From: Caldanaerobacter subterraneus | GTDB lineage: Bacteria > Bacillota > Thermoanaerobacteria > Thermoanaerobacterales > Thermoanaerobacteraceae | Reading direction: 5' to 3' | DNA: 64,000 nucleotides | Assembly: GCF_004345675.1 (NCBI RefSeq) | Contig: NZ_SLWU01000001.1 | Coordinates: 83,916 to 147,915, forward strand | Shown here: positions 11,375 through 34,242 of the stretch, in pieces | Layout of the letters: each line of letters starts with the position of its first letter | Position numbering within the stretch: position 1 is the stretch's first letter | Position numbers and translations under genes: made by a program | The notes under the pieces: generated by a model | Told to the model about the DNA's origin: nothing | What the model saw: only the letters and a program-made list of their open reading frames with translations | Database searches by the model: none

Positions 11375-14119
11375 TTGACAAATAAGGAGAAAGTTTTTAA
11401 TCTGGTCAAAGAGCTATCCCAGAATATAAATGTAAAGGAGAAAAAGGGCATAACTGCTCAGGAGGTAGCCCGGAAATTAAATCTGAGAAGAAATGTAGCA
11501 AGTCACCTTCTAAACGAACTTCACAAGGAAGGTAAGTTAATAAAAATTAACACAAGGCCTGTGTATTTTGTAGATAGGGAAATTTACGAAAAGAGGGCAA
11601 AGGAGTTTAAGGATACTACAAAGGATGTAAGCACTTCCTTGAAATCTTCATCAGAAGATCCTTTTGTAAAGCTTGTAGGCTACAACGGCAGTTTAAAAGA
11701 ACAGGTAAAACTGTGCAAATCTGCTGCTTCATACCCGCCAAACGGACTTCCTATTTTGCTTACTGGTAGTACAGGAGTAGGGAAAAGCTATATTGCTCAG
11801 CTAATTTATGAGTACGCCAAGTATATAGGAGTTATAGATGAAAATGCGCCGTATGTGATATTTAACTGCGCAGAATATGCAAATAATCCTGAACTTTTGT
11901 CTGCTAATTTATTTGGTTATGTAAAAGGGGCATTTACAGGGGCTGACAGGGACAAACCAGGCCTTTTAGAAGAGGCTGATGGAGGTTATCTGTTCTTAGA
12001 TGAAGTGCACAGGTTACCTCCTGAAGGGCAGGAAAAACTCTTCCTCTTTATGGACAAAGGCATATTCCGAAGGCTGGGAGAGACGAACAACTGGAGAACG
12101 GCAAAGGTAAGATTTGTATTTGCTACTACTGAAGACCCTGAAAAGACTTTTACAAAAACTTTTTTAAGAAGGATTCCTTTGGTGGTCCACATACCTTCTT
12201 TTGATGAAAGGCCTTTGCACGAAAGATTGCAATTAATTTACAATTTTTACAGAAATGAAGCAAGAAATTTAGGGATGGATATTTTAATAAGTAAACAGGT
12301 TTTGAATGTGCTTTTAAAGACAAAGGTTTCAGGGAATATCGGTAAACTTATAAATGTCATAAAATATAGCTGTGCCCAGGCTTACAGCCATATTATCAAG
12401 AGCAAAACCAATATTTTAAGAATTCACCTTTATGACCTTCCTAAGGAAATGCAGACGGACCTTGATATAGTAAAAAGTAACTTCCACTTCAATGGAATGC
12501 TCATTTCTCACAATAAAAAGGATGAAGGTTTGTCCTGGGAAAAGGATGACAATAGAGAGATATACAGTGCTTTAAACAAAATGTTTGAACTTTTTAAGGA
12601 ATATCAAAATAATGGCATTGCTTCTGAAGAGTTTAAGAAAAACGTGTTGGTTTATTTAAACGAACTGACGGATACTATAATTTTCAAGAATGACAGCAGC
12701 TATATAGATTCAATAGTCTTTAACGCTATCAAAAATGTTGTAGAAAATGTTCTCAATATAATGCAAAACATGTATGGAATTAAATATTATGGCAATTCTG
12801 TTCTTGTCCTGTCTCATTTTATCAATTACCTTTTGAGTGATGTGACTTATGAGAAGTATTCTGAGAGCATAGAGTCAGCTTTGGAGATATTGAAAAATAT
12901 CTTCCCGAAAGAGTTTATAATAGCAAACAAAATGGCGGATCTGATAGAGGTAAACCTCGATATTAAACTCAACAAGATTGCTGTGGCATATTTTACACTT
13001 TATGTAAGAAGTTTAAACAAGACTGAGTCAGCAAATTTGATAAATTCCATAATAATCGCTCACGGGTATTCTACTGCCAGCAGCATTGCCAGCGTTGCTA
13101 ACAGGCTTTTGGGACAGTTTGTCTTTGAAGCTTTTGACATGCCAATTGAGATGTCTACACAGGAGGTAATGGCAAGGGTTCAGGAGTATCTAAAAAATAT
13201 TGATACCTCAAGAGGAGTTATCATTCTTGTTGACATGGGTTCTTTAGAGGAGATATACAAATCTTTAACTGACATTGTGGAAGGAGATATAGCGATTATA
13301 AACAACATAACAACGCAGCTGGCTTTGGATGTTGGGAATAGAATACTTCAAAATCAGCCTCTGGAGCAGATTGTTACAGAGGCGATACAGAGGAACAGTA
13401 TTACCTATAAGTTTATTAAAACAGAGAGAAAGAAAATCTCTATACTTACAACTTGTATTACAGGAATTGGAACTGCAGTTAAGATAAGGGATTTACTATA
13501 CGAATGTTTAAAAGGTGAAAAAATAGAAATAATTGCATACGACTTTAACAGATTAAGAGGAAATGGTATTGGGGATGAGATTTTCAAAGCCTATAATGTG
13601 AAACTAATTATAGGTACTGCGGATCCGGGAATAAAGGATGTACCTTATTTATCTTTAGAGGATTTAATCACAGGGAACGGGGAGGTATTGTTAAAGAGGG
13701 TTTTAGAAGGGGTTGTCGATAATGAGGTTATAGAAAAGGTAAATCAGGCAATAGTCAAACACTTTTCGTTGCAGAATGTGCTTCAATATCTTACGTTCCT
13801 TAATCCTGCTAAAATAATTGACCAGGTAGAAAAAGCTATCAGTGATTTGGAAATTTATCTGGGATTCAAATTTCCAAATAGTCTTAAGATAAGTCTTTAT
13901 ATTCATGTGAGTTGTATGATAGAAAGATTGATAATGAAAGACCCTATCAATTGTTACGAAAATATTGAAGAATTTGAAAAGTGTCATAGACACTTCATAG
14001 AAGGTGTAAAATCTTCTTGTAGTGTAATAGAAGAAACCTACAAAGTGGATATTCCACTATCAGAAATTGGGTTTATATACGATATAATCCGCTCAAAGGT
14101 AAAAGATGTAGCTATTTGA
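11375..14119 (+). CDS. levR: LevR-type sigma-54 transcriptional activator with PTS regulatory domains
   Basis: A 914-residue activator of sigma-54 RNA polymerase. Domains in order: winged helix (about 1-65); AAA+ domain with Walker A GSTGVGKS (131-138), the sigma-54 contact motif GAFTGA (185-190) and Walker B LFLDE (206-210); a PRD-like region; EIIA-mannose domain with His563; EIIB-galactitol-like segment with Cys694; and a final PRD with Cys870, His871 and His873. PTS phosphorylation of the histidines would set its activity according to sugar supply. The start is TTG behind AGGGGAG at 8 nt. It stands alone with its own terminator, so its targets are in trans or just downstream. A 13-bp palindrome inside its final PRD coding region recurs upstream of two nearby operons. 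Confidence 0.92.
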   Translation: MTNKEKVFNLVKELSQNINVKEKKGITAQEVARKLNLRRNVASHLLNELHKEGKLIKINTRPVYFVDREIYEKRAKEFKDTTKDVSTSLKSSSEDPFVKLVGYNGSLKEQVKLCKSAASYPPNGLPILLTGSTGVGKSYIAQLIYEYAKYIGVIDENAPYVIFNCAEYANNPELLSANLFGYVKGAFTGADRDKPGLLEEADGGYLFLDEVHRLPPEGQEKLFLFMDKGIFRRLGETNNWRTAKVRFVFATTEDPEKTFTKTFLRRIPLVVHIPSFDERPLHERLQLIYNFYRNEARNLGMDILISKQVLNVLLKTKVSGNIGKLINVIKYSCAQAYSHIIKSKTNILRIHLYDLPKEMQTDLDIVKSNFHFNGMLISHNKKDEGLSWEKDDNREIYSALNKMFELFKEYQNNGIASEEFKKNVLVYLNELTDTIIFKNDSSYIDSIVFNAIKNVVENVLNIMQNMYGIKYYGNSVLVLSHFINYLLSDVTYEKYSESIESALEILKNIFPKEFIIANKMADLIEVNLDIKLNKIAVAYFTLYVRSLNKTESANLINSIIIAHGYSTASSIASVANRLLGQFVFEAFDMPIEMSTQEVMARVQEYLKNIDTSRGVIILVDMGSLEEIYKSLTDIVEGDIAIINNITTQLALDVGNRILQNQPLEQIVTEAIQRNSITYKFIKTERKKISILTTCITGIGTAVKIRDLLYECLKGEKIEIIAYDFNRLRGNGIGDEIFKAYNVKLIIGTADPGIKDVPYLSLEDLITGNGEVLLKRVLEGVVDNEVIEKVNQAIVKHFSLQNVLQYLTFLNPAKIIDQVEKAISDLEIYLGFKFPNSLKISLYIHVSCMIERLIMKDPINCYENIEEFEKCHRHFIEGVKSSCSVIEETYKVDIPLSEIGFIYDIIRSKVKDVAI
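13981..13993. repeat. palindrome GTGTCATAGACAC, copy 1
   Basis: A perfect GTGTC/GACAC dyad around ATA, within the codons for Cys870-His873 of the LevR-type activator. The same 13 bp occurs at 14649 and 28681. Confidence 0.8.
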
Positions 14120-14122
14120 AAG

Positions 14123-14156
14123 TGCCAGCAGTGTTACACTGTCTGGCATATTTTTT
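14123..14156 (+). terminator. rho-independent terminator of LevR-type activator
   Basis: A stem of TGCCAG-CAGTG with CACTG-T-CTGGCA (one bulged T), a TTA loop and a TATTTTTT tail. The right arm and T run resemble sequences at 14741-14766 and 28797-28819. Confidence 0.8.
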
Positions 14157-14638
14157 ACTCCTTTACCTGTGGTCCTACCTCTCTCAGAATGCTTATGGGG
14201 TATTACAATGAATGGCATTCATTAGAAGAAATTGCACTTTATATGGAGCAAATTGGAAACAGCCTATATTATGGAGGTGTAGGAGGGGATACAATAGTAG
14301 AGGCTGCTCGGCATTTTGGGTTTAAAGAGGCGAAATTAAAATATGGATGGGAGGAATTGAAAAAATCCATAGCTTCAGGAAATCCCTGTATTGTATATCT
14401 CAGGATAAGAGCGGGAGATTATCCACGGTATTATCTGGATGACAAGCCAGTATATACCAATTTTACAGGGGGACACTGGGTAGTTGTTTGTGGGTTGGAA
14501 GCTGATGAAAATGGGAATGTAAAATATGTAGTAGTCAATGATCCGGCAAGTGGGGCTAATCCTAAAAATTTACACCCTTGTCCTTCGATACAGCATGGTC
14601 GAGATTTAGGCTTTTGGTAATACTGAGGGAGGGAGAGA
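14156..14638 (+). pseudogene. C39-type cysteine peptidase fragment
   Basis: The frame gives FTCGPTSLRMLMGYY at 14162-14206, which is the catalytic-cysteine motif of C39-like peptidases. It is followed by the family's histidine segment GGHWVVVCGL and the NDPASG loop. The start is missing: the cysteine motif abuts the upstream terminator with no start codon or signal peptide. Near 14576 the reading frame shifts; the other frame continues as RYSMVEI, a stop, then AFGNTEGGR. The fragment therefore lacks both ends. The 143-codon frame from the ATG at 14189 would begin after the catalytic cysteine, so it cannot be an active peptidase. Confidence 0.7.
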
Positions 14639-14700
14639 AAGCAGAACAGTGTCATAGACACTTTTCTTCGGGATTTTAAATTTCTTTGCAGTGTAATAAA
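14639..14700 (+). pseudogene. remnant of a PRD-type regulator 3' end, with palindrome copy 2
   Basis: One frame reads AEQCHRHFSSGF then stop. This matches the FEKCHRHFIEGV segment of the LevR-type activator 670 bp upstream. The DNA match continues at AGTGTAATA (14690-14698 versus 14021-14029) with only a 1-base difference in spacing. The palindrome GTGTCATAGACAC lies at 14649-14661. It is either a decayed duplicate of the activator's tail or a retained binding site. Confidence 0.45.
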
Positions 14701-14727
14701 AAATTGTTGATTGTTAAATAGATATAG

Positions 14728-14766
14728 ACCATGCCAACGGTTACTACACTTGTTGGCATGGTTTTT
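14728..14766 (+). terminator. stem-loop with T run, terminator-like
   Basis: A perfect 11-bp stem ACCATGCCAAC / GTTGGCATGGT (14728-14738, 14752-14762) and a TTTTT tail. Its right arm overlaps a sigma-54 promoter match. Confidence 0.65.
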
Positions 14767-14769
14767 GCA
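14754..14769 (+). promoter_or_regulatory. sigma-54 promoter match before ABC importer operon
   Basis: TGGCAT-N5-TTGCA fits the -24/-12 consensus with one change and correct 10-bp GG-GC spacing. It overlaps the right arm and T run of a hairpin, so the match could be chance. However, a copy of the palindrome lies about 95 bp upstream, where an activator site would be expected. Confidence 0.4.
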
Positions 14770-14949
14770 ATTATTTTTTAGCGGAAAATGTGATATGCTT
14801 ATTTTATGGAGAAAGTGTGGGACTACAGCAAGTATTTTCAGTAAACGATTGACAGTTTGAAGAAAAAGGAGGGAGAAGGGCGGGAAGAAGAAAAACATTT
14901 TAGATTTTTCAAATTTTAAGATTTTTACATGAGGAGGGAGCCATTTATA

Positions 14950-16254
14950 ATGAGAAAATTTATTGCTTTACTAGTAGTGATGGCGTTGATAATTGGTGCT
15001 ATGGCAGGATGTGCTACTAAAACCAGTCAAAAAGAGCAGCAGCCTTCTCAGGAGGCTCAACAGCCCACTCAGCCGCAAGTCACTATAAAATTCTGGCAGG
15101 CTGGTGGAGACACAGCAGGTGCAGCTGAAAAAATGTCTGAACTCATCAAAAAGTTTGAAGAGAAACATCCAAACATTAAGGTAGAGTATATGGCAATTCC
15201 ATGGGCAGAGGAACCTCATAATAAGTTCCAGACAGCTATAGTAAGCGGTGAAGTAGCTGATTTGCTGATAGTAGGATCTCCTTTTGACCACGTTCTCGCA
15301 AGCAGTGGAGCGATAATTCCTTTAGACCAGTTTATAGATGAAGAATTGAAAAAAGATCTGATGGATGTCTTTTCAAGAGAAGGAATTTATCACGGCAAGA
15401 ACAAGGACCTTGATGGCAAATTAATCTCTATACCTATGTTTGGTGATGTTAGAACGATTGTATATAACAAAGACATCTTCAAGAAAGCAGGAGTGCCTGA
15501 GCCTACAGAATCTTGGACATTAGAAGAATTTAAGCAAAATGCTTTGAAACTCACAAAAGATGGCGTGTACGGATTTGGCACTTCTGGAAGATATGCATCC
15601 CAATGGTTGCCATTTGTATGGGACAAAGGTGGAGAAATACTCAACCAGGAAATGACAGAAGCAACTATTACTACTCCAGAATGGAAAGAAGCATGGGAAT
15701 ATTACATTGAGCTTATCAACAAAGCTAGTATGCCGGGTTCGGTAAATGTTAACTTGGCAGAGATTCAGAAATTGTTTGCACAGGAAAAAGTAGCAATGTT
15801 TGTAACCACACAGGACTATGTAGAAGAGCTCATGAAAGATCCCAACTTAAAAGATAAAATAGGTGTTGGACAGATGCCTCATGACAAATATCAGACAGCT
15901 TTTGCTGGAGCAGATGTTTTTGTGATTACTAAGCAATCTAAGCATCCAAAAGAAGCTTGGGAACTTTTAAGATTCCTAGTATCCACGGAGAACCAGCTAG
16001 AGTATTGTAAGACTGTGGGATTCTTACCTGCAGTTAAGTCAGCAGCTAGCGATCCTTACTTTACAAATGACCCTGTTAAAAAAGGCTTCTTGCAGGCTCT
16101 TGAACATGGTAAATTCTATGTGAAGTCAGACAAGGCAAATGGTATAACTACGATACTGCGTGCAGAGATTCAGAATGCTATTACTGGTAAAAAGTCAGTC
16201 CAAAAAGCTTTGGAAGATGCAAAACAAGCCATAGATTTACTTCTAAATTCTTAA
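14950..16254 (+). CDS. ABC sugar transporter substrate-binding lipoprotein
   Basis: A 434-residue family 1 extracellular solute-binding protein. The signal peptide ends in AMAGC with the lipidated Cys21, then comes a Gln-rich linker and the two-lobed binding domain (IKFWQAGGDTAG onward). It captures a sugar or oligosaccharide outside the cell for the two permeases downstream. The start is the ATG at 14950; the in-frame ATG at 14929 lies just before the ribosome site GAGGAGGGAG. The neighbouring amino-sugar kinase, NagZ and SIS proteins suggest GlcNAc- or MurNAc-containing ligands, which is an inference. Confidence 0.9.
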   Translation: MRKFIALLVVMALIIGAMAGCATKTSQKEQQPSQEAQQPTQPQVTIKFWQAGGDTAGAAEKMSELIKKFEEKHPNIKVEYMAIPWAEEPHNKFQTAIVSGEVADLLIVGSPFDHVLASSGAIIPLDQFIDEELKKDLMDVFSREGIYHGKNKDLDGKLISIPMFGDVRTIVYNKDIFKKAGVPEPTESWTLEEFKQNALKLTKDGVYGFGTSGRYASQWLPFVWDKGGEILNQEMTEATITTPEWKEAWEYYIELINKASMPGSVNVNLAEIQKLFAQEKVAMFVTTQDYVEELMKDPNLKDKIGVGQMPHDKYQTAFAGADVFVITKQSKHPKEAWELLRFLVSTENQLEYCKTVGFLPAVKSAASDPYFTNDPVKKGFLQALEHGKFYVKSDKANGITTILRAEIQNAITGKKSVQKALEDAKQAIDLLLNS

Positions 16255-16271
16255 CACTTCAAGTAAATGAG

Positions 16272-16310
16272 GGAGAGGGGAGCCTTAATTCAGAATTTGT
16301 TCCTCTCTCC
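16272..16310 (+). other. intercistronic stem-loop after binding-protein gene
   Basis: GGAGAGGGGA pairs with TCCTCTCTCC across a 19-nt loop, without a T run. It probably stabilises the abundant binding-protein mRNA or partly attenuates expression of the permeases. Confidence 0.5.
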
Positions 16311-16402
16311 TGTAATAAATTTAGGTGCCTACAAATTGATCTTGTTTCCAGAAGAAATTTGCGGAAGAGAGAATTCATATTAGGAAAGTGGTGGAGGAAA
16401 AG

Positions 16403-17296
16403 ATGATCGTTACAAATAGAAAAGAGAAAGTTGGATATTACTTATTCTTGTTGCCAGCCTATTTGATTTTTGCAGTATTTATTTTTTGGCCTGTGGTTCA
16501 CTCTTTGTATCTTTCTTTTTTCAAATATAACATAGTTACAATTACTTCTCCACAATTTGTGGGATTGAGGAATTATCTATATTTACTCAAAGACGAGGTT
16601 TTCTGGATAAGTTGCAAAAACACCTTGTTTTTTGTGATAGGTACTGTTCCTGTGAAGATGTTTTTAGGCCTTTTGGCTGCAATGCTTCTCAATAGAAAGG
16701 ATTTGAAATTTAAAGCTTTCTACAGAACCTGCTTTTATATTCCTGTGGTAGTCTCTATGGTAGCAATTTCCATCGTGTGGATGCTTCTTTTCAACCCGGG
16801 TCCAAATGGAGTAGTAAATATTTTGCTTTCAAAATTTGGAATTCAGCCGCTAGGTTGGATAGCAGATTCTAAACTTGCGCTGCCTACAGTGATGTTGCTA
16901 GTAATATGGAAAGATTTGGGTTATATTATGGTAATTTACTTAGCAGGGCTTATGGCAATTCCCGATGAAATTTATGAAGCGGTGGCATTAGATCCCGTGA
17001 GCTCGTGGCAGAAATTTTGGTATATTACATGGCCTTTATTAAAACCAACAACGATCTTTATACTTATCACCCAGGTGATAGATTCATTCCAGGTATTTAC
17101 TCCAATTTATGTGATGACAGAAGGAGGACCGGGCTATAGTAGTACTACTATAGTAAATTACCTATATGATAAAGGTTTTAGAGAATACGAGATGGGAATT
17201 GCATGTGCAGTAGCATACCTGTTATTTGTGGTGTTACTTGTTTTAACCATACTGCAGAACAAACTTTCTAAAGCAGAAGAAGTATCTTACGACTAA
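16403..17296 (+). CDS. ABC sugar transporter permease (MalF/UgpA type)
   Basis: A 297-residue inner-membrane protein with six predicted helices. The cytoplasmic EAA loop EAVALDPVSSWQKFWYITWP contacts the ATPase. The start is the ATG at 16403 behind GGAGG; a GTG five codons earlier is possible. It pairs with the next permease to form the translocation channel. No ATPase gene is present in this operon, so a shared MsmX-type ATPase encoded elsewhere must energise it, as is common in Firmicutes. Confidence 0.9.
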   Translation: MIVTNRKEKVGYYLFLLPAYLIFAVFIFWPVVHSLYLSFFKYNIVTITSPQFVGLRNYLYLLKDEVFWISCKNTLFFVIGTVPVKMFLGLLAAMLLNRKDLKFKAFYRTCFYIPVVVSMVAISIVWMLLFNPGPNGVVNILLSKFGIQPLGWIADSKLALPTVMLLVIWKDLGYIMVIYLAGLMAIPDEIYEAVALDPVSSWQKFWYITWPLLKPTTIFILITQVIDSFQVFTPIYVMTEGGPGYSSTTIVNYLYDKGFREYEMGIACAVAYLLFVVLLVLTILQNKLSKAEEVSYD

Positions 17297-17338
17297 ATGA
17301 CGAGAATACGAAAATTTACCTGAAGAGAGGGATGCAAA

Positions 17339-18163
17339 GTGAAAAAACTGTTGCTTTATTTAATATTGACTTTAATTGCCTTTTTGATGCTTTCCCCACT
17401 GTTATGGATGGTATCTACTTCGCTTTCTAAGGACTCTGTAATTGTATCTACAAGCCTTATCCCAAAAGAATTTACTTTAGAAAATTATGTAAAAGCATGG
17501 AATTTTCCTCGTATATTCAATAAAGATGTGACTTTTGGCACATTCTTTTTGAATAGCATAATAGTGACGGTATGTCTTGTTATAGGAGGACTTTTTTTTG
17601 ACTCGCTGGCGGGATATGTTCTTGCTAGAAAGGATTTCCCGGGAAGAAGTTTGTTTTTCTATGCTGCCCTTATAACCCTTATGATTCCCTTTTATGTTAC
17701 AGCAATACCTATGTTTCTTATAGTTAAAGGATTGGGCTGGATTAATACCTATCAGGGTTTAATTGTTCCCTTCCTATCATCTGGGTTTGGGATATACATG
17801 TTTAAACAATATTTCCAGACAATTCCTATTGAATTGGAGGAAGCTGCAAAAATAGATGGTTATTCAGACTTCTGGATTTACGCCCGAGTGATAGTGCCTC
17901 TTGCCAAGCCAGCATTTGCAACAATGGGAATTTTAAAGTTTTTGTGGTCATGGAACATGTTCTTTTGGCCTTTGATCGTTACTACAGATATCAAGATGAA
18001 GGTATTGCAGCTAGGGCTTACAATGTTTAGGGGTCTTAATGTGACTCAATGGGGACTTCTTACAGCAGGTATGACCATGGCAACACTGCCTACTATTTTG
18101 GTATACTTGCTTTTCCAGAGATACTTTACAAGTGGTTTGATAGCAGGCTCTTTAAAAGGCTAA
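17339..18163 (+). CDS. ABC sugar transporter permease (MalG/UgpE type)
   Basis: A 274-residue membrane protein with about six helices and the EAA loop EEAAKIDGYSDFWIYARVIV (about 180-199) that docks on the ATPase. It is the second half of the importer channel. The GTG start follows GAGAGGGATG. It is followed 19 bp later by the sugar kinase, which links uptake to phosphorylation. Confidence 0.9.
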   Translation: MKKLLLYLILTLIAFLMLSPLLWMVSTSLSKDSVIVSTSLIPKEFTLENYVKAWNFPRIFNKDVTFGTFFLNSIIVTVCLVIGGLFFDSLAGYVLARKDFPGRSLFFYAALITLMIPFYVTAIPMFLIVKGLGWINTYQGLIVPFLSSGFGIYMFKQYFQTIPIELEEAAKIDGYSDFWIYARVIVPLAKPAFATMGILKFLWSWNMFFWPLIVTTDIKMKVLQLGLTMFRGLNVTQWGLLTAGMTMATLPTILVYLLFQRYFTSGLIAGSLKG

Positions 18164-18182
18164 AAAGTGGGGTCGAAATAGC

Positions 18183-19196
18183 ATGAAAATTTTTGCTGGG
18201 TACGACTGCGGAGGCAGTAAAACAAAGTGCATTATTGCAGATGAAAATGGAGAAATCTTGGCCAGTGCGGAAGAGGGGCCTTCAAATTTTCTTTCTTGCG
18301 GTTATGAAATTGCAAGAAAATCCATAAAGGAATGCACCCGACAGGCTCTAATAAAGGCGGGTTTGGAAGAAGATCAAAAAATTTACAGTGCCTATATAGG
18401 GTCAGCATCTGTTGAGTTGTTTTCTCAAAATGAAAGGATTTATAACTTTTTCAGGAGTTGTGTTAATGCAGAGCATCTGGGGATAAACAACGATGCCTAT
18501 ATAGCTTGGTATGGGACTACTTTTGGAAGTACAGGAATCATATCAATAGCAGGTACTGGGGCAGTGACTTACGGAATACGCGAAGACGGGAGTTGGAAAA
18601 AGGTAGGAGGATGGGGATATCTTATAGGAGATGACGGCTCAGGATATTCGTTAGGGAGGAAAGCTCTTCAATTAGCAGTGAAGTCATATGATGGAATAAT
18701 TGAAAAAAATAGATTTGAAGAGGAGATATCAAAGTTTTTTAATTTGGATTCCATGAGAGACCTTGTAGGAATGTTGTATCAGGACCCCTACAAAGGAGTG
18801 AAGATAGTAGCTTCTGCTGCCACATGTGTTTTTAAATTATTCGATGCCAACTATTGTTTAGCGATAGAACTCATAGATAAGGCAGTTTCTCAGATTGCCG
18901 ATTCAATATATGCAGTTTATTCTTCGCTGGATTTAAGAAACCAATTTATCAAAATAGGAGTATCGGGAGGAGTATTTTACGGAGGAGGAAGTAAATTACT
19001 AGATCTTCTTCAAAGTAAACTTATAGAGCGTGGGGTGGAAAAGTTCTGCCTCACCTTCCCTCACATACCTCCTGAGGTTTCAGCGCTGTTACTTTCTTAC
19101 AGCCAAGTAAAACATCAAGATTACGAGAAGATAAAGCAGGCTATCTTATGCCGATTCAAAAACAACAATGAGGTGGATCAAAATTGCGTATTCTAG
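18183..19196 (+). CDS. BadF/BcrA-type ATPase, probable N-acetylglucosamine kinase
   Basis: A 337-residue sugar kinase of the ASKHA fold. It has the phosphate-1 motif YDCGGSKTKCI at the N-terminus, an adenosine/phosphate-2 motif IAGTGAVTYG (about 121-130), the GGWGYLIGDDGSGYSLGR loop and a C-terminal GVSGGVFYGGG segment, all as in NAGK-type N-acetylhexosamine kinases. It would phosphorylate the sugar brought in by the ABC importer. A second, related kinase lies at 28883. Its last codons overlap the next gene by 13 bp. Confidence 0.85.
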   Translation: MKIFAGYDCGGSKTKCIIADENGEILASAEEGPSNFLSCGYEIARKSIKECTRQALIKAGLEEDQKIYSAYIGSASVELFSQNERIYNFFRSCVNAEHLGINNDAYIAWYGTTFGSTGIISIAGTGAVTYGIREDGSWKKVGGWGYLIGDDGSGYSLGRKALQLAVKSYDGIIEKNRFEEEISKFFNLDSMRDLVGMLYQDPYKGVKIVASAATCVFKLFDANYCLAIELIDKAVSQIADSIYAVYSSLDLRNQFIKIGVSGGVFYGGGSKLLDLLQSKLIERGVEKFCLTFPHIPPEVSALLLSYSQVKHQDYEKIKQAILCRFKNNNEVDQNCVF

Positions 19197-20461: not shown

Positions 20462-20475
20462 AGCGGTGGTGAAAA

Positions 20476-21603: not shown

Positions 21604-22335
21604 GTGAATACCCGATATATAGAGAGTATCAGAAAATTAATAGATGAGATTGAAAAGACGCAGTGGCAGGTAATAGAACAGGTTTCCCAAGTATGTGCAC
21701 AGGCAATAAAAAACGACAAACTTCTTTATTTCTTTGGGACTGGACATTCACATATGATGTGCGAAGAGCCTTTTTACAGGGCTGGTGGCCTTGCATGTGT
21801 ATATCCAATATTGGAACCTTCTCTTATGCTCCACGAGGGAGGATATAAAAGCACCTTGATGGAGAGAGTAGAAGGGATAGGGAAGATACTTCTGGAAAAC
21901 AGTGGGCCAAGTGAAGGAGATGTACTATTTTTGATTTCAAATTCCGGTAGAAATTCTGCAGTAATAGAAATGGCTATCGAGGCAAAAGAAAAGGGAATTA
22001 TCACTGTAGCCATTACATCTCTAAAACATTCAAAGACCTTCTCTTCCAGGCACAGAAGTGGCAAAAACCTCTATGAACTTACGGATTATGTAATAGATAA
22101 TTGTGGAATTCCTGGAGATGCAATAGTGGAATACGAAGGCTTTTCTCAGAAGGTAGGACCTACTTCTTCTATTGCTGGAATTCTTATAATAAACACTATA
22201 ATAACCAACGTAGTGGAGAAATTATTGTCCTGGGGTATAACACCTCCAGTATTCATAAGTGCCAATACGGACGAAGGTGAAAAGTTTAACCAACACCTTC
22301 TTGAAAAGTACAGGCTTCGAATAAAGGTTTTGTGA
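21604..22335 (+). CDS. SIS-domain protein (UPF0309 type)
   Basis: A 243-residue sugar isomerase-fold protein. FFGTGHSHMMCEE near residue 44 and LISNSGRNSAVIEMAIEAKE (about 109-128) are the phosphosugar-binding loops of SIS domains. Proteins of this length and pattern are annotated UPF0309 and usually sit in amino-sugar clusters. They may act as etherase, isomerase or phosphosugar-binding proteins. The GTG start follows the M20 stop codon directly, behind GGAGGG. It resembles the MurQ fold, but the lengths differ and a true MurQ is encoded at 57109. Confidence 0.75.
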   Translation: MNTRYIESIRKLIDEIEKTQWQVIEQVSQVCAQAIKNDKLLYFFGTGHSHMMCEEPFYRAGGLACVYPILEPSLMLHEGGYKSTLMERVEGIGKILLENSGPSEGDVLFLISNSGRNSAVIEMAIEAKEKGIITVAITSLKHSKTFSSRHRSGKNLYELTDYVIDNCGIPGDAIVEYEGFSQKVGPTSSIAGILIINTIITNVVEKLLSWGITPPVFISANTDEGEKFNQHLLEKYRLRIKVL

Positions 22336-22366
22336 AAGATTAAAAGCGTTGAGGGGGGGGTATATT

Positions 22367-24592
22367 ATGAAATGGTGTAAAAAGGTTGTAAGCTTAATTA
22401 TTTCGGTATGTATGGTGATGACTTTCATCAGTCTGAAAGAAAGCAGTGCCATTGCCAAAGAAAAAGAGGGGAGAGAAGAAGTGAGAGTAGCAGTATTAGA
22501 AGCGAAGGAAGCTACAACTCCAAAAAGTGTAGAACAAGTCATTCACGTGTTAAAGGAATATGGAATAAAAGCTGAAAAAATTTCACCAAAGGAGGTTGCA
22601 AAGGACAAACTAGAGAAATTCGATGTAATTGTCATACCTGGAGGAAGGTCTCTCAATCAGGCAGAAGCCCTGGGAGAGAAGGGTCGGGAAGCTATTAAGG
22701 AATTTGTTAAAAGAAGAGGAGGATACATCGGAATTTGTGCAGGGACATATCTCGCTACCAAGGGCGAGGGTAAATATGATTCCTATCTTGGAATTGTGAA
22801 TGCTCAAGTCGTTGATATTGAACACTGGAACAGGGGATGTGGTGACGTCCAAATTAAGGTAAAATCGCTGGAGCATCCTGTGATTTCTGGTTATTATGGA
22901 ACTCTCACCGTCCACTATAAAAACGGACCTATTTTGAAAAAAATTGATGTACCAGGTATGCCATCTTACGTAGAATTGGCTTCCTACATCAGCGATATTC
23001 ATGACAACGGACCGGAAGGAATTACGCCTAACACTCTGGCTTTAATTGCTTCAGAATATGGTGAAGGAAGAATAGTACTTTTCAGCTTTCATCCCGAATA
23101 TACTGCGGGGCTGGGAAAAATGCTTATGCAAGCGGTATTGTGGTGTGCAAAAACTTCTCCCGAAGAGTATCCTCTCAAGTTAAAGAAAAGCCATGATGTG
23201 AAAGTCAAAGGGGCATGGCTGTGGGGAAGCACAGTGTACAATTTGGGAGTAGATGGAGCGAAGATAATAACAGATCAGATGAAAGAATATGGTTTTACCG
23301 ATATATTTCTTCTTGTAAAAGGGACGGCAGGGAGAGTTGATTATAATAGCAGAATAGCTTTGGGACTAGCTCATCCCGATAGGGATATATTAAAAGAAGT
23401 AGTAGAGGAAGCACACAAAAAGGGAATAAGAGTTCATGCCTGGTTTGTTGTGAACTCTGATAAACAGTGGGCAACGCTTCATCCCGAAGATAGGATGGTA
23501 CACATCAAGAAAGGGCCCGATGATAGTAGGATATCTCCATTATCTATAAATTACAGGGAATATGTAAAGAATCTTGTAAAAGAAGTCTTGGAAAACTATA
23601 AGGTCGATGGAATTCACCTGGATTATATAAGATATCCACACGTGGTATTTGGATTTAATGAGAATTATGAGGTTACAGAAGCAGTAAAAATAGGAATAGA
23701 TATGAATAAAATAAAATCTTTGATAGATCGCACTTTCTATACGGATAAAGATGGCAAATCTATATTTGAAGCGTATGATAGAGGAGATAAAGATGTTGTT
23801 GGATGGATAGAAATGAGGAAAAACGCCGTAAAATCTTTTGCAGAGGAAATAAAGGAAGTAGTGAAGTCCTACAGTCGAAAAGTGAAATTTTCTGCTGCAT
23901 TGATGCCAGAAGGAGCATATGATTCTAACTTCTTAACAGCCCAGAATGATTCTAGAACCTTTGCATTAGTGCATTATGGACAGGATTATAAAGATGCTTC
24001 TTCCATTTATGACTTTGCGGTGCCTATGCTTTATTGGGGGGACTATGGCAAATCACCCCAATGGACTGCAGTACTTTATAACAATGCAGTAGAAATGTTT
24101 GATAATAATAAGAGAGTATATGCTGGATTACAGGCATACAGTCCTGTTAAAACTTATGACCTTTGTGATGCAGTAAATTATATAAGACAAAGTGAAAGCG
24201 AAGGAATAGTTTTCTTCAGGTTTGGGACTTTTGGCTTAAGTAAAACTGCAGTGAAAGAGGCGAAAGATGGCGAAAAAGTGATGACCGTGATTATGACAAA
24301 TCCTTTAAACCAGGATAATTCACCGAATGTCGACATTACGAAGGTTGAAATAGAGCTTAAAGGAAACTATGTAGCAAAGGAGATCGTGGAAACAAGTTCA
24401 GAAATCTCTGCCAAAATTTCTGAGAGTGGAAAAGTAGTTATAATAACAGGTAATCCTTGTATACCACAGAATGGAACATTGAAAATTGCCATATCAGTTC
24501 GAGGGGAAGAACCCAAGGATGTAGAACCTGCCCAGGTTAGATTTTACGTAACAGACAAGTACTATGAAGTAAGAGTCTACAACCAATACTAA
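22367..24592 (+). CDS. exported amidotransferase-like (BPL_N) / GHL10 glycosidase fusion
   Basis: A 741-residue protein with an N-terminal signal sequence (about 1-32). Residues about 45-270 form a class I glutamine-amidotransferase-like fold of the biotin-protein-ligase N-terminal type, with nucleophile-like Cys124 in GICAGTYLA. Residues about 280-620 form a GHL10 TIM barrel, recognised by KGAWLWGSTVYN, RVHAWFVVNSDK and DGIHLDYIRYP with its catalytic-type aspartate. A small beta domain follows at the end. It would act at the cell surface on glycans, possibly wall glycans. The start is the ATG at 22367 behind a G8 run. The two-domain pairing is unusual and its chemistry is unknown. Confidence 0.75.
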   Translation: MKWCKKVVSLIISVCMVMTFISLKESSAIAKEKEGREEVRVAVLEAKEATTPKSVEQVIHVLKEYGIKAEKISPKEVAKDKLEKFDVIVIPGGRSLNQAEALGEKGREAIKEFVKRRGGYIGICAGTYLATKGEGKYDSYLGIVNAQVVDIEHWNRGCGDVQIKVKSLEHPVISGYYGTLTVHYKNGPILKKIDVPGMPSYVELASYISDIHDNGPEGITPNTLALIASEYGEGRIVLFSFHPEYTAGLGKMLMQAVLWCAKTSPEEYPLKLKKSHDVKVKGAWLWGSTVYNLGVDGAKIITDQMKEYGFTDIFLLVKGTAGRVDYNSRIALGLAHPDRDILKEVVEEAHKKGIRVHAWFVVNSDKQWATLHPEDRMVHIKKGPDDSRISPLSINYREYVKNLVKEVLENYKVDGIHLDYIRYPHVVFGFNENYEVTEAVKIGIDMNKIKSLIDRTFYTDKDGKSIFEAYDRGDKDVVGWIEMRKNAVKSFAEEIKEVVKSYSRKVKFSAALMPEGAYDSNFLTAQNDSRTFALVHYGQDYKDASSIYDFAVPMLYWGDYGKSPQWTAVLYNNAVEMFDNNKRVYAGLQAYSPVKTYDLCDAVNYIRQSESEGIVFFRFGTFGLSKTAVKEAKDGEKVMTVIMTNPLNQDNSPNVDITKVEIELKGNYVAKEIVETSSEISAKISESGKVVIITGNPCIPQNGTLKIAISVRGEEPKDVEPAQVRFYVTDKYYEVRVYNQY

Positions 24593-24602
24593 GAGATTGA
24601 TG

Positions 24603-24655
24603 GGGAGCACCTTTGTGGCTTTAGACACAAAGGTCTCCCTTGGCTTGTGCTTTTT
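24603..24655 (+). terminator. stem-loop with T run
   Basis: GGGAG-C-ACCTTTGTG pairs with CACAAAGGT-CTCCC, and a TTTTT follows 11 nt later. It is likely an attenuator or terminator between the fusion gene and NagZ. Confidence 0.5.
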
Positions 24656-24696
24656 AATGGGGTTTTACTTTATGGACTCATAGGGAGGGAGTAAAA

Positions 24697-26295
24697 GTGG
24701 AAATAAATAAGATGAGTTTGGATGAGAAAATAGGTCAAATGATTATGGCAGGTTTCCCTTCTAATTATTATGATGAGCACATTGACGTACTTGTAAGCAA
24801 GTACAAGGTAGGAAATTTTGTATTGTTTACAAGAAATATAGGTTCTGTAGAAGAGATTGTCAGTCTTACCGAGACCATTCAAAAAAAGGTCCTTGAACAA
24901 TCAGGTATACCTGCTATTATAGGAGCAGATCAAGAAGGAGGGATGGTCAGCCAAGTTAGGGAAGAGGCTGTATTTTTTCCAGGGAATATGGCAGTATCCG
25001 CTGCAAATATAGAAGGAAGCACATTGAAAGAAGGAGAGATAGTAGGAGAAGGTCTCAAAGCCTTGGGTATAAATCTTAATATAGCACCTGTACTGGATGT
25101 GAATAACAATCCTAAAAACCCCATAATTGGCGTGAGGTCATATGGGGATGACCCTGAGAGAGTAGCTAGACTAGGGATTGATTTTATAAAAGGCATGCAA
25201 AGCAAAGGAGTAATTGCTACAGCAAAACACTTTCCAGGTCACGGAGATACGTCGGTAGACAGCCATCTTGATATGCCTGTTGTCCCTTATGACAGAGAGA
25301 GGCTTGAAAGAATGGAGTTTTATCCTTTCAGAAAAGCAGTGGAAGTTGGTGTGGATGCAATTATGACAGCTCATATATATTTTCCGGCAATGGATACTGA
25401 AAAAATTCCTGCTACCTTATCTTACAACATCCTCACAAAGCTTTTGAGAGAGGATATGTGTTTTGAGGGGATTACCATAACTGATTGTATAGAGATGAAT
25501 GCAATTTCAAAGAAATTCGGTTCGGAAAAAGGAGCAGTCAAGGCGATAAATGCTGGTGCTGATATGGTAGTTATATCCCATCATCTGGATGTACAGATAA
25601 GGTGCATAGAGGCTATAAAGGAAGCTGTTCTAAACGGAGAAATTCCTGAGGAAAGGATAAATGAATCAGTAGAGAGGATATTGAGGATAAAGAAAAAGTA
25701 TGGATTCTTTGAAAATCCTTATCCTGACCTGATCAGAGCAAAAGAAGTGTTAAGTTGCAAAGAGTATATAGAATTTGCTAGAGAACTCAGTGAAAAAAGT
25801 ATTACCCTCATAAAAGATGAAAAAGGGCTGATACCTCTTGGTGATGCTAAAGATATGAGAATTGTCTTCATTTCTCCAGAGCCGAAAATGTTTATGGGAG
25901 GGATATGGGAGGCTGTCAGAAGGAAGTATACTCTATCAGAAGTTTTGAAGGAGGAGTTTGGAGGAAAATCAATAGTGATTTCCTTCAATCCGGAGGAGAA
26001 TGAGCTAGAAAAAGTGGTTGAGGAGTGTAGAGAGAGTGACAAAATAGTAATAGGAGTTTCCGCGCTGAATTTAAACCCGGGGCAAGTAGAGCTTGTGCGC
26101 AGGTTATCTTGCTTGGGAAAAGATATAATAACGATTTTACTTGGAAATCCATATGATTTTCTTCTGATAAAGGAATATGTTTCTACCTGCATTTGTGCTT
26201 ATGAACATACTCCTTTATCGGTGAAAAGTGTTAGAAAAGTTTTAAAAGGAGAAATAAAATGTGAAGGAGTTTTGCCTGTAAAGATAGAAATATAA
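24697..26295 (+). CDS. nagZ: beta-N-acetylhexosaminidase, GH3 (NagZ type)
   Basis: A 532-residue two-domain glycosidase that releases N-acetylglucosamine from wall fragments. The GH3 barrel carries the KHFPGHGDT motif (Lys177-Thr185) with the DSH that forms the acid/base His-Asp dyad, and the nucleophile Asp263 in ITDCIEMNAI. Residues about 350-532 are the C-terminal alpha/beta domain seen in Gram-positive NagZ. There is no signal peptide, so it is cytoplasmic. The GTG start follows GGGAGGGAG. A close paralogue at 60257 is broken, so this copy probably supplies the activity. Confidence 0.92.
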   Translation: MEINKMSLDEKIGQMIMAGFPSNYYDEHIDVLVSKYKVGNFVLFTRNIGSVEEIVSLTETIQKKVLEQSGIPAIIGADQEGGMVSQVREEAVFFPGNMAVSAANIEGSTLKEGEIVGEGLKALGINLNIAPVLDVNNNPKNPIIGVRSYGDDPERVARLGIDFIKGMQSKGVIATAKHFPGHGDTSVDSHLDMPVVPYDRERLERMEFYPFRKAVEVGVDAIMTAHIYFPAMDTEKIPATLSYNILTKLLREDMCFEGITITDCIEMNAISKKFGSEKGAVKAINAGADMVVISHHLDVQIRCIEAIKEAVLNGEIPEERINESVERILRIKKKYGFFENPYPDLIRAKEVLSCKEYIEFARELSEKSITLIKDEKGLIPLGDAKDMRIVFISPEPKMFMGGIWEAVRRKYTLSEVLKEEFGGKSIVISFNPEENELEKVVEECRESDKIVIGVSALNLNPGQVELVRRLSCLGKDIITILLGNPYDFLLIKEYVSTCICAYEHTPLSVKSVRKVLKGEIKCEGVLPVKIEI

Positions 26296-26334
26296 ATAAA
26301 ACTATCGTTATTGAATAAGGAGGTAAAAAATGTA

Positions 26335-27468
26335 ATGGAAGGTCCAAGAGCTTGTAGAAAAGAGGAATTTAAAGAAGCATTAGATCTTATTAACCACGTA
26401 TTTCGCATTACTCAGGGTCACGAGCCTACGATGGGGCAGGAGTTTCCTCTACTTCTCAGCGAAGATAATCTGGAAAACATGAGGGTAATTGCAGAGGATG
26501 GGAAAATAGTATCTATTGTAAATTTCTACATCACCACGATTCTAATAGAAGGAACTCCTATAAAAGCTGCTTCAGTAGGAGCAGTTTGTACTCATGAGGA
26601 CTACAGAGGAAAGGGATATTCTTCCCTGTTACTGGATGATGCAGAAAAAGAGATGAAGAAAAAGGGAGTAGATGTTGTGCTTGTCTCTGGAGATAGAAGC
26701 CTGTACTTGAGAAGGGGGTATTGTAAAGCTGGATGGGCAATCCGATTTGATGTATACCCTGAAGAATTGGGAGAGGATATTGAGCTTGTGGAATTTGAAG
26801 ATAAGTATTTGATTGAAATGGCGAAAATGTACAATAAACAAACTACTAGATATTATAGAAGCTTGTTTGAATTCAAAAACCTTCTAAAAGGTGCAACTAC
26901 ACCATGGGGAAATTTCACTTACAAGACTTATCTTGTAAAGAGAGGAGATGTTTTAAAAGGATATGTAGTTCTTCGTATAATTCACGAAAACCCTGAAAGA
27001 GGATATGTAGTTGAATACGGGGGCGACGAGAGGACTGTGCTTAAGAGTTTAAAAAAGATGGCAGTAGTACATTCTCTGACCCATATTCGAGTACCCTGTA
27101 CTTTTAATGAAAAAATGGTAGAAGTCATAAAAGAAGAAAATATTCCTTTTGAAGAAATTAATCTTCTAGGAACAGTTAAAGTTTTGAATTTCAAACAACT
27201 AATGGAAAAACTAGTTCCATACTTTTCTCAGTATGTAGAAAAAGAAATTATAAAAAATTTGAAATTTGTCGAGGATGAGGGTAAATATACTATAGAATTC
27301 AATGGAGAAACTCTGACATTGGATGGGGTAGAGAAACTTACAAAATTAGTTTTTGGAGACAAAGGATTTGGAATAGCCCTTGATGGAGTAGGACCTCGCC
27401 TAAAAGAATTTTTCTCAAGAGTGTTTCCATTGCCTTTTGTATGGCCTGGAAATCTCAATTTCCAGTGA
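26335..27468 (+). CDS. GNAT-family N-acetyltransferase, Eis-like architecture
   Basis: A 377-residue protein. The N-terminal GNAT domain (about 5-140) carries the acetyl-CoA loop HEDYRGKGYSSLL. A second, degenerate GNAT-like region and a C-terminal SCP2-like segment (about 300-377) give it the Eis-like layout. It would acetylate an amine such as an amino sugar or peptide. The start is the ATG at 26335 behind AAGGAGGT; the TTG at 26311 precedes that ribosome site. It follows NagZ by 39 bp, as GNAT genes often do in wall-recycling clusters. Confidence 0.75.
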   Translation: MEGPRACRKEEFKEALDLINHVFRITQGHEPTMGQEFPLLLSEDNLENMRVIAEDGKIVSIVNFYITTILIEGTPIKAASVGAVCTHEDYRGKGYSSLLLDDAEKEMKKKGVDVVLVSGDRSLYLRRGYCKAGWAIRFDVYPEELGEDIELVEFEDKYLIEMAKMYNKQTTRYYRSLFEFKNLLKGATTPWGNFTYKTYLVKRGDVLKGYVVLRIIHENPERGYVVEYGGDERTVLKSLKKMAVVHSLTHIRVPCTFNEKMVEVIKEENIPFEEINLLGTVKVLNFKQLMEKLVPYFSQYVEKEIIKNLKFVEDEGKYTIEFNGETLTLDGVEKLTKLVFGDKGFGIALDGVGPRLKEFFSRVFPLPFVWPGNLNFQ

Positions 27469-27555
27469 GGTAGAGTTGGTGAAGGATATATAATATATTA
27501 TATTACTTAACTGTACTGTAGTATGGAACGTATAAGAAGAAGGAGATGAGAAAAA

Positions 27556-27936
27556 ATGCTCATGAAAATACTGAGAACATTCCTTGGATGTTTTTTGACA
27601 GGGTTAATAGTTCAAAGTGCATGGGTAGCGCTGGTAGAGGCCTACGGGCTTATAGGGGGATGGTTTGCGGCCTTCATCATAATAAGTCCTATGTGGTTTC
27701 TAAATCATTACCTGGGGTTGATTGAAAATGAAAAGGATGGAGCATGGATTGATATGGCAATAGGCATTGCTGTGGCGGGGCTGGTGAGAGATCTATTTAA
27801 GGTTCATTCTTTCAGCTTTGCTTTCAAAGTCTTGCCAGTTTTGCTTGCAGTCATCGCAGGAGGAATTGTAGGAGGCTATCTCGCGGTGTTTGTAAAACAA
27901 GGGATGGCAAAAGAAACGGAGGAGGAGAAGGTATGA
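27556..27936 (+). CDS. small membrane protein, first of a paralogous pair
   Basis: A 126-residue integral membrane protein with about four hydrophobic helices and a charged tail (KETEEEKV). The core pattern GLIGGW-x-A...NHYLGL...WIDMAIG recurs in the next gene, so the two arose by duplication. They overlap by 4 bp (ATGA) and probably form a heteromeric membrane complex. From memory the pair resembles the Listeria Lin0368-type proteins annotated as putative glycerol-transport subunits, but I could not check this. No known transporter motif is visible. Confidence 0.7.
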   Translation: MLMKILRTFLGCFLTGLIVQSAWVALVEAYGLIGGWFAAFIIISPMWFLNHYLGLIENEKDGAWIDMAIGIAVAGLVRDLFKVHSFSFAFKVLPVLLAVIAGGIVGGYLAVFVKQGMAKETEEEKV

Positions 27937-28265
27937 AGTATGAATGCATCATCACTGCATTTGTAGCGGGATTTATCTTTCCTTTTCTTATAGAATTATT
28001 GTGGCATGAGATGGTAAGATTGTGGGGACCGATGGGGGGATGGATTGGTGCAGGGTTCATTGTGGGAACAGTATGGATAGTGAATCATGGTCTGAACTTG
28101 ATACCCCAAATGGGGCCATGGGTTGATATGACATGGGGACTATGCGCAGGCCTTTTTACTGCTTCAATAGTGCGTGGTGGGAAATTCAAAAAAGCTCTTC
28201 CTCATTTGGTGGGAGGGATTTTAGGAGGAATAGTGGCAGGGTATATTTTGTCATTGTTTGTTTAA
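27933..28265 (+). CDS. small membrane protein, second of a paralogous pair
   Basis: A 110-residue membrane protein with about four helices. It aligns with its upstream neighbour through GPMGGWIGA, WIVNHGLNL and WVDMTWGLCAG. The overlapping start and stop imply coupled translation. The gene is followed by a terminator, closing the locus that begins at 14950. Function unknown; uptake or a membrane scaffold are both possible. Confidence 0.7.
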   Translation: MKYECIITAFVAGFIFPFLIELLWHEMVRLWGPMGGWIGAGFIVGTVWIVNHGLNLIPQMGPWVDMTWGLCAGLFTASIVRGGKFKKALPHLVGGILGGIVAGYILSLFV

Positions 28266-28281
28266 AAAATGTACAAAGAAG

Positions 28282-28316
28282 GCGGGTGCTAAACTTTCCA
28301 AAGCGCCTGCTTTTCA
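28282..28316 (+). terminator. rho-independent terminator
   Basis: GCGGGTGCT pairs with AGCGCCTGC (two G-U pairs), followed by TTTT. Confidence 0.65.
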
Positions 28317-28411
28317 GTTGTTTTTAGTGCAATTTTTGAGGGGAAAATATAAGAAAATAAAATTATTGCAACCAAAAATTCATAGATATGCCTTAACCGA
28401 ACAGGCATAGG

Positions 28412-28553
28412 AAATTGCCAATAAGTCCATGTTTAGCTCTTTTCATGCTAAACAATGAAGGAGTACCTGCAAATTATGAAGCAGATATGGAAGCTTTAAT
28501 TACTCTTTGTTTTTTACATTATATAGGGTGGTAGACCTGGTTTTCAGGCAGAC
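28412..28553 (+). pseudogene. sugar isomerase C-terminal fragment (fucose isomerase-like)
   Basis: One frame reads LPISPCLALFMLNNEGVPAN and continues YEADMEALITLCFLHYI; after a one-base shift it continues as GGRPGFQAD. The pattern 'NEGVPA-x-EAD-x-x-ALIT ... GRP-F-AD' resembles the C-terminal part of the L-fucose isomerase-like (COG2407) family. There is no start, the frame shifts near 28526 and stops follow, so this is debris. The 330 bp around it hold no intact gene. Confidence 0.45.
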
Positions 28554-28680
28554 TAGTATTGAGGTTGTGAATAAGCTTTATCTTGACCTTTTTATATTAT
28601 AACAAGTGTAACTCCTAAGAAGTGAGTGATGTTATTATTTGAGCCTGCTGCTTAGAGTATCTTTTAACACATTTAACCTA

Positions 28681-28693
28681 GTGTCATAGACAC
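28681..28693. repeat. palindrome GTGTCATAGACAC, copy 3, with half copy at 28721
   Basis: Identical to copies 1 and 2. A partial copy GTGTCATAG begins exactly 40 bp later at 28721. One frame across it reads CHRHIE, as in the tail of the LevR-type activator. It lies about 115 bp upstream of a sigma-54-like sequence. Confidence 0.7.
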
Positions 28694-28806
28694 ATAGAAA
28701 TTCTTATCCTGTTTTTATCAGTGTCATAGTCTGCAATCTTTAAATAGGCTGTAAAGAGGAGGAATAATCTAGTTATAAGGGAGATAAAGAATTTTATTAC
28801 ACTGTT

Positions 28807-28822
28807 TGGCACATTTTTTGTT
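28807..28822 (+). promoter_or_regulatory. imperfect sigma-54 promoter match before amino-sugar PTS operon
   Basis: TGGCAC-N5-TTGTT has a perfect -24 box and correct spacing, but the -12 box has GT instead of GC. It lies 60 bp before the kinase start codon. Mannose-family PTS operons are classically sigma-54/LevR controlled, which supports it. Confidence 0.35.
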
Positions 28823-29872: not shown

Positions 29873-29926
29873 TTTACAAAAGGACTTGAATATGATAAAA
29901 CCTAAAGTAAAAGGAGATGAGTATTA

Positions 29927-30409: not shown

Positions 30410-30412
30410 ATT

Positions 30413-31945: not shown

Positions 31946-31976
31946 GAATAGAACTTTATTTCTGGAGGTTAAAGCG

Positions 31977-32402: not shown

Positions 32403-32440
32403 TTTATATTCTCTCAAAAATATTACAAGAGGTGAACAAA

Positions 32441-34221: not shown

Positions 34222-34242
34222 AATAAAGTAGGGGGTATGGAC

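Follow-up and report, generated by a model that had tools for sequence, protein, structure and literature searches.

Can a stretch of DNA that encodes part of a regulator also control the genes that this regulator serves? The question was raised by a 64,000-nucleotide stretch of the Caldanaerobacter subterraneus genome (assembly GCF_004345675.1, contig NZ_SLWU01000001.1, positions 83,916 to 147,915), here called the window. In it levR, the gene for a LevR-type activator of sigma-54-dependent transcription, contains near its 3' end a 13-bp palindrome that recurs upstream of an ATP-binding cassette (ABC) importer cluster and upstream of a phosphotransferase system (PTS) operon. An earlier account made from the letters of this DNA (the sequence-only reading) had placed an activator site in the regulator's own 3' coding end and had taken the other two copies for retained tail remnants that brought further operons under the same control, with decayed duplications without function as its alternative. 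The analysis reported here makes it likely that the motif is a LevR enhancer, as predicted from sequence, that would be coding and regulatory at once, and that LevR would also control the ABC importer and a PTS operon of amino-sugar type through two further arrays of sites.

The paired sites and their promoters

The palindrome GTGTCATAGACAC (GTGTC-ATA-GACAC) was found exactly at 13981, 14649, and 28681, which confirmed the sequence-only reading, and no other window match was present at two or fewer mismatches. In the whole source genome (G000; 2,575,920 bases in 79 contigs), GTGTCNNNGACAC occurred at exactly three places, which were these same three. A backwards control of the loose dyad also matched three times genome-wide; thus, the loose dyad alone is not rare (three versus three), and the special feature is that three identical 13-mers all lie within 15 kb.

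Every copy is a pair, in which AGTGTCATAGACAC (site A) is followed by AGTGTnATA (site B) at a spacing of 41, 42, and 40 bp in copies 1, 2, and 3 (Table 1). A partial fourth copy, previously reported at 28721, is real (28720, AGTGTCATAG) but is not a separate copy; it is the second member of copy 3's pair. TACACT lies exactly 9 bp before the −24 box of each array (14135 and 14144 in copy 1, 14745 and 14754 in copy 2, 28798 and 28807 in copy 3). The pair pattern AGTGTNATAGNNN{20,34}AGTGTNATA matched three times in the source genome and its backwards control not at all. Among the 16 arrays examined here and in relatives, 4 of them noncoding, the A-B spacing was 40 to 42 bp in all 16, and [TA]ACACT stood 9 to 10 bp before TGGCA in 13. 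A lone 13-bp palindrome as the unit was ruled out by the second site at 40 to 42 bp in 16/16 arrays and by a dyad no rarer than its control: the palindrome is exact, but the unit is the pair plus the TACACT half-site.

Sigma-54-like elements lie where they had been proposed for copies 2 and 3, and copy 1 has one as well (14144). Genome-wide, a strict sigma-54 pattern matched 27 sites (backwards control, 1), and just 2 of these have AGTGTnATA within 400 bp upstream, namely, the sites of copies 2 and 3. A scan of the window for the −24/−12 consensus gave 32 matches against 24.4 expected and was uninformative alone. The copy 2 promoter, TGGCATGGTTTTTGCA, has GG at −24 and GC at −12 with the correct spacing. 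A related run of TACACT, TGGCA, and a T-run had been described past all three copies; TACACT and the −24 box are indeed present at each, but copy 1 has lost the GC of its −12 and folds as a terminator. Repeated or dyad sites upstream of a −24/−12 promoter, by which a LevR upstream activating sequence is recognized, were found here. The gene for sigma-54, rpoN, is present in the genome (PF04552, 1.9e-64, contig C18), as the sequence-only reading required.

LevR was filed as a LevR-type protein on the basis of its predicted domains, in the order N-terminal helix-turn-helix (HTH), AAA+, PRD, EIIA-Man, PRD. The AAA+ sigma-54 interaction domain (PF00158, 6.8e-41) carries GAFTGA at residue 185, and the two PRD stretches (PF00874) and EIIA-Man (PF03610) are C-terminal to it. 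No Pfam match at E≤1e-3 indicated an EIIB-Gat-like domain in the region that separates EIIA-Man from the last PRD. No Pfam HTH match was obtained for the N terminus, a segment that does align with the N termini of homologues, and the HTH label was borrowed from descriptions of LevR in excerpts of PMC10864463. The last PRD stretch spans residues 819 to 907, and site A of copy 1 (residues 869 to 874) lies inside it, where the palindrome had been located before.

In the proposed mechanism, LevR oligomers would bind the site pair, whose members are about four helical turns apart, with TACACT as a third half-site; the identity of the motif as a LevR site is inferred from linkage to levR and conservation. 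In relatives, the coding-embedded pair would serve a promoter 3' of the levR stop codon. In the source genome, an insert parts levR from the neighboring operon, with the old promoter left as a predicted terminator. The second pair, with its complete sigma-54 promoter, would serve the ABC importer operon (14929 on), and the third would serve the BadF kinase/Aga-type PTS operon (28883 on), with transcription starting at the predicted promoters. PTS-controlled phosphorylation of LevR would govern all three enhancers, such that the ABC importer and the PTS would be induced together, probably by an amino sugar.

Conservation of the site in levR codons and in other genomes

To be regulatory as well as coding, the levR tail should vary less than its protein demands. 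Synonymous differences were compared with an expectation that was taken, for each gene pair and amino acid, from the rest of levR, using a mask of the ten codons of the two sites that was ranked against 863 to 893 placements of the same two-window mask with enough comparable codons. In 8 Thermoanaerobacter-like sequences, 27 differences were counted against 89.6 expected (ratio, 0.30), and in 11 sequences including three Clostridium (48 to 84% identical to the window protein), 54 were counted against 177.5 (ratio, 0.30). The ratio was 0.39 when L015 and L019 were added and 0.34 (139 against 404.5) for all 17 Bacillota sequences, which include these two degenerate cases; in each of the four sets, the sites were the lowest placement. 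Site A alone (residues 869 to 873) had no synonymous difference in any set, and the variation at site B in the 11-sequence set fell on the motif's free position (GTC or GTA) and on the last, edge codon. The codons between the sites (52 against 58.3) and after them (201 against 190.2) changed at near the expected rate in the 8-sequence set. As a control, 5 enterobacterial levR genes, in which no sigma-54 promoter was seen in the 260 bp past the stop codon, gave 35 differences against 29.9 (ratio, 1.17; rank 743 of 890). As far as sequence comparison goes, the codon pattern of the levR tail is what a DNA site within coding sequence would be expected to look like, and the proposal that an activator site is embedded in the 3' coding end gains from a conservation beyond the protein's needs.

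The pair lies at the same levR codons in relatives, with a sigma-54 promoter 3' of the stop codon. In 24 genomes of the order, with levR presence defined by E≤1e-150, the strict pair was found in 10 of the 12 genomes with levR and in none of the 12 without it (control matches, 0). In the two levR-bearing misses (G027 and G028), site A is changed and site B is intact. Before a BadF gene orthologous to that at 28883, the sister species G006 has AGTGTCACAGACAC, AGTATCATA at 42 bp, TACACT, and TGGCATGCTTTTTGTT, and the 200 bp upstream of this array do not align with the window (P = 0.62). The comparison of loci across relatives that had been suggested thus gave the array before the PTS operon a counterpart. 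An extra array precedes a second operon in L015, and more degenerate ones were seen in G027 and L016.

Across 398 genomes of the phylum, the pair pattern matched 4 genomes outside the genus, none with levR in the 3-kb stretches around the match. The control also gave 4 matches, which puts the chance rate of the pattern at about 0.01 per genome. The promoter-proximal pattern ACACTN3TGGCAYN5TTGC matched 13 places in the same genomes (control, 0). Six of the surrounding stretches hold levR, and another place, in G027, corresponds to the second array there, about 2.8 kb past levR; of these seven levR-linked places, 3 are within the genus and 4 are outside it. The levR genes of G366, G404, and G208 (43 to 44% identity to the query within the matched part) carry TTTAGTGTCAT or TTCAGTGTCAT in their tails.

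A separate observation concerns enterobacterial LevR-like genes of Trabulsiella, Enterobacillus, and Yokenella (L028, L029, L031, and L040), which have a sigma-54 promoter soon past the stop codon, with GTGACAC close upstream of the −24 box, reminiscent of TACACT.

Several results weigh against an enhancer role for these sites. At the promoters, copy 1 is now without a usable one (TGGCATATTTTTTACT has no GC at −12), and the −12 of copy 3 is weak, TTGTT (GT, not GC), as it is in G006. In the arrays, [TA]ACACT is missing from 3 of the 16, and the distance from site A to −24 differs widely (106 to 268 bp) and follows no clear helical phase. Amino acid changes take site A off the motif in L015, in all three Clostridium genes, and in the two Thermoanaerobacterium-type genes; L019 lacks site A, keeping site B alone. 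The synonymous signal of the 5 closest Thermoanaerobacter genomes alone reaches only rank 17 of 896, and 6 of the 13 ACACT-promoter matches are without levR in the stretch, one of them (L106) having a 30% match to the AAA+ domain only. Finally, residues 1 to 70 of LevR, which include the presumed HTH, share 44 to 60 positions among the Thermoanaerobacter-like carriers but only 34 to 35 with the Clostridium and Tepidanaerobacter carriers, scarcely above the 32 shared with a paralogue of the source genome; the HTH sequence is therefore no evidence for or against a common site among carriers.

History of the copies and competing explanations

The promoters of copies 1 and 2 were compared with G006, which has TGGCACATTTTTTGCA at the place where the −12 of copy 1 has decayed to TTACT and in which the promoter next to levR is that of the ABC operon. 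The leader of this G006 promoter is alignable with the copy 2 leader (P = 0.001) but not with the sequence past the copy 1 relic promoter (P = 0.33). The copy 2 promoter is therefore probably the counterpart of the G006 levR-adjacent promoter, now parted from levR by an insert. Segment 14120 to 14640 holds a C39-peptidase-like open reading frame (ORF) that is without the start of the domain, and a search of the 9 other genomes of the genus found no match to the segment. As speculation, copy 1 might still be active over a distance of about 770 bp through its sites.

Whether copies 2 and 3 descend from a levR tail was examined by 54 shuffle tests (three arrays [copies 2 and 3 and the G006 array], three parts of each, and six tails). 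Outside the elements, homology to levR tails reached P < 0.05 in 7 of the 54, against about 2.7 expected, with tails that are themselves interrelated; the other 47 comparisons were no better than shuffled sequence, which leaves the description of the copies as retained tail remnants unproven. Tests of the intersite DNA of window copies 2 and 3 against levR tails gave 0/12 at P < 0.05. Because 7/54 compares with 2.7 expected and flanks of comparable age are unalignable, a decayed duplication of the levR tail is at most a possible source of copy 2's pair.

The −24 box forms the 3' arm of a hairpin that is followed by a T-run at 11 of 17 levR-type promoters (z, −3.5 to −8.8); relatives contribute 12 levR-adjacent promoters to this set, 8 of them with the hairpin. 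In the window, terminator-type hairpins (z ≤ −3.5) were found at copies 1 and 2 and not at copy 3, and the 3' side of the copy 1 hairpin includes TACACT (14135 to 14140) and the relic −24 box. We infer that the promoter often doubles as the predicted levR terminator. Terminator-promoter overlap as a general rule was ruled out, with no such hairpin at 6/17 loci. Thermoanaerobacter wiegelii (L012) and its close relatives (L062, L063, and L064) have no overlap hairpin and, judged by eye, a separate terminator-like hairpin before the promoter. By the same judgment, neither an overlap hairpin nor a separate terminator was noticed in L014, L016, and L068, so the idea of an overlap or else a separate terminator draws on L012 and those three relatives only. 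Of the remaining 25 strict sigma-54 sites in the source genome, only C4:2705 has a comparably strong hairpin overlap; the strong hairpin at C6:54352 (z, −4.61) is positioned upstream of the −24 box.

Three other explanations were weighed. That the motif is bound by a different regulator, e.g., a repressor or catabolite regulator acting on the levR-linked operons, is unlikely. TACACT beside the −24 box might be recognized by another factor, and the presumed HTH of the Clostridium carriers is no closer to that of the window than the paralogue's is; however, the presence of the pair tracks levR in the order (10/12 versus 0/12), and the promoters downstream of the sites are of the sigma-54 type, which needs an activator. 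We think it very unlikely that copies 2 and 3 are functionless recombination leftovers of a duplicated levR tail, with the sigma-54-like boxes being terminator arms. Such an origin would accord with the terminator folds of copies 1 and 2 (not 3), the decayed copy 1 promoter, the evident insert and rearrangement, and the seven flank comparisons at P < 0.05. Nevertheless, the elements and their spacings are intact while the remainder is not clearly alignable, G006 has a near-identical array before the same gene despite an unalignable upstream flank, and similar arrays precede second operons in L015 and, in more degenerate form, in G027 and L016. Elements conserved amid diverged flanks contradict the alternative that the sequence-only reading had itself offered.

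There is the slimmest chance that the levR 3' end is constrained by protein, mRNA structure, or codon use, with an incidental likeness to an enhancer. The residues at the sites are well conserved in Thermoanaerobacter, and the palindrome could form a 6-bp hairpin. However, RNA pairing is not preserved, since the version in most same-genus relatives, AGTGTCATAGACAG, is incompletely self-complementary; the motif is also present in noncoding DNA; and the synonymous constraint is limited to the two sites and is missing from the enterobacterial homologues. A LevR enhancer, partly embedded in levR, is the explanation that we prefer.

The predicted targets (Table 1) were characterized by their domains. 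Cluster 1 encodes an ABC importer (solute-binding protein and two permeases), BadF kinase, ceramidase-like and M20 peptidase proteins, SIS, glycosidases, GNAT, and two DUF6905 proteins. Operon 2 encodes a BadF/NagK-like kinase, a mannose-family PTS IIB, a fused IIC-IID, and a IIA (Aga-like), together with a class II aldolase, a PfkB-type kinase, and an AgaS-family isomerase. Since several NCBIfam matches fall below curated cutoffs, the assignment to amino sugars is a prediction. In T. wiegelii (L012) and L014, a PTS operon lies directly 3' of levR, and past it are genes closely related (82 to 95% identical) to those for the aldolase, kinase, and isomerase in the window; in both the window and G006, levR is separated from these genes by the ABC cluster and another PTS. 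In G006 (L100/L101, contig C15), about 6 kb separates the DUF6905 genes from the PTS operon, far more than in the window.

Table 1. Positions of levR, the site arrays, and neighboring features in the window
Feature	Position	Strand	Basis or remark
levR, LevR-type sigma-54 activator gene, 914 aa	11375..14119	+	Pfam; GAFTGA; HTH region via alignment only
Copy 1 site A, AGTGTCATAGACACT, levR codons 869-874, proposed LevR enhancer site	13980..13994	+	Sequence match
Copy 1 site B, AGTGTAATA, levR codons 883-885	14021..14029	+	
Predicted levR terminator, hairpin past levR stop, then T-run	14122..14149	+	z −4.15 and −3.68
Relic sigma-54 promoter of copy 1, TGGCATATTTTTTACT	14144..14159	+	−12 GC lost
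C39-peptidase-like ORF fragment, between levR and copy 2	14189..14620	+	Pfam
Copy 2 site A, AGTGTCATAGACACT, noncoding	14648..14662	+	
Copy 2 site B, AGTGTAATA	14690..14698	+	
Hairpin overlapping copy 2 −24 box, at T-run start	14726..14764	+	z −5.39 and −5.79
Copy 2 TACACT half-site	14745..14750	+	
Predicted sigma-54 promoter of ABC importer operon, TGGCATGGTTTTTGCA (copy 2)	14754..14769	+	1 mismatch to consensus TGGCAC-N5-TTGC
Predicted target cluster 1	14929..28265	+	Pfam; same order in G006
Copy 3 site A, AGTGTCATAGACACA, noncoding	28680..28694	+	
Copy 3 site B, AGTGTCATA	28720..28728	+	
Copy 3 TACACT half-site	28798..28803	+	
Predicted sigma-54 promoter of PTS operon, TGGCACATTTTTTGTT (copy 3)	28807..28822	+	Atypical −12
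Predicted target operon 2	28883..35409	+	Pfam/NCBIfam, several NCBIfam matches below curated cutoffs

Relation to other sigma-54 activators

Other sigma-54 activator genes of the source genome resemble levR in having a sigma-54 promoter 21 to 108 bp past the stop codon but differ in their site sequences, or have no recognized site. A second LevR-type activator gene (C1:82464-84788), which starts before the window and appears to end at 1269 (window region 13 to 1305), is followed by a sigma-54-like promoter, TGGCATAATTCTTGCT, that starts at 1290; L010 has the same layout. Because this promoter starts 21 bp past the gene end, any enhancer more than about 20 bp upstream of it must be in coding sequence. 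At L091 (G000:C10:65752) and L088 (G000:C8:68512), strong palindromes, AATACACATATGTGTATT and a repeat with 16-bp arms, lie at or just past the activator stop codon, upstream of the next sigma-54 promoter. At L079 (G000:C4:2705), a sigma-54 promoter starts 59 bp past the end of the activator gene, and its −24 box is the arm of a 14-bp-stem hairpin (z, −6.83).

A broader hypothesis is put forward tentatively, as one that may well be wrong. Sigma-54 activator genes might end in their own enhancer, with a terminator that doubles as the target promoter, such that the last 250 bp or so would combine coding sequence, enhancer, terminator, and promoter. LevR regulons might grow by copying of the enhancer-promoter part, after which coding and regulatory duties would be split between the copies, as for the ABC importer here. 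If the LevR enhancer reading is right, levR would be a clear case of bacterial coding sequence serving as an enhancer, conserved between Thermoanaerobacter and Clostridium. It would come with natural controls, in that the constraint is missing from homologues that have no promoter downstream and, where the sites are no longer part of a gene, little besides them has been retained. Motif searches restricted to intergenic DNA would miss such enhancers, and a regulator would have a route to gain operons, by which an ABC importer would here have been joined to a PTS-type regulator.

In the literature that was covered, which did not extend to the primary LevR and CelR papers, no paper was identified that places an enhancer within the gene for its cognate sigma-54 activator, which does not prove that none exists. 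For the Clostridiales, Nie et al. (2019; PMC6615313) describe sigma-54 regulons in which activators are mostly beside their targets and 170 of 263 have one target operon. Multiple sites per operon are frequent, distances are mostly 100 to 250 bp, and the promoter consensus is TTGGCATN5TTGCT. The motifs of that study were trained on noncoding upstream DNA, and its genome scan, from −400 to +50 of gene starts, can reach into the upstream gene; the words "coding region" and "Thermoanaerobact" are absent from its main text.

Two known systems are closest, both as described in excerpts of PMC10864463. The LevR/levanase operon system of Bacillus subtilis is likewise a PRD/EIIA-type sigma-54 activator of a PTS operon, with the enhancer 125 bases upstream of the transcription start of the levanase operon; here, in contrast, the paired site of copy 1 lies wholly in levR codons 869 to 885, and there are two more arrays, for the ABC cluster and the PTS operon. 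CelR of Bacillus thuringiensis and Clostridium acetobutylicum is a LevR-type activator with several enhancer sites per promoter, and mutation of UAS2 and UAS3 lowers cel operon expression. Its sites are in the celA promoter region, and a coding-embedded enhancer is unmentioned in the excerpted account. By this comparison, a PTS-controlled activator, several enhancer sites, and a −24/−12 promoter look like the known LevR/CelR design, and an enhancer in the coding end of the activator gene, together with further arrays, looks like a variant feature of it.

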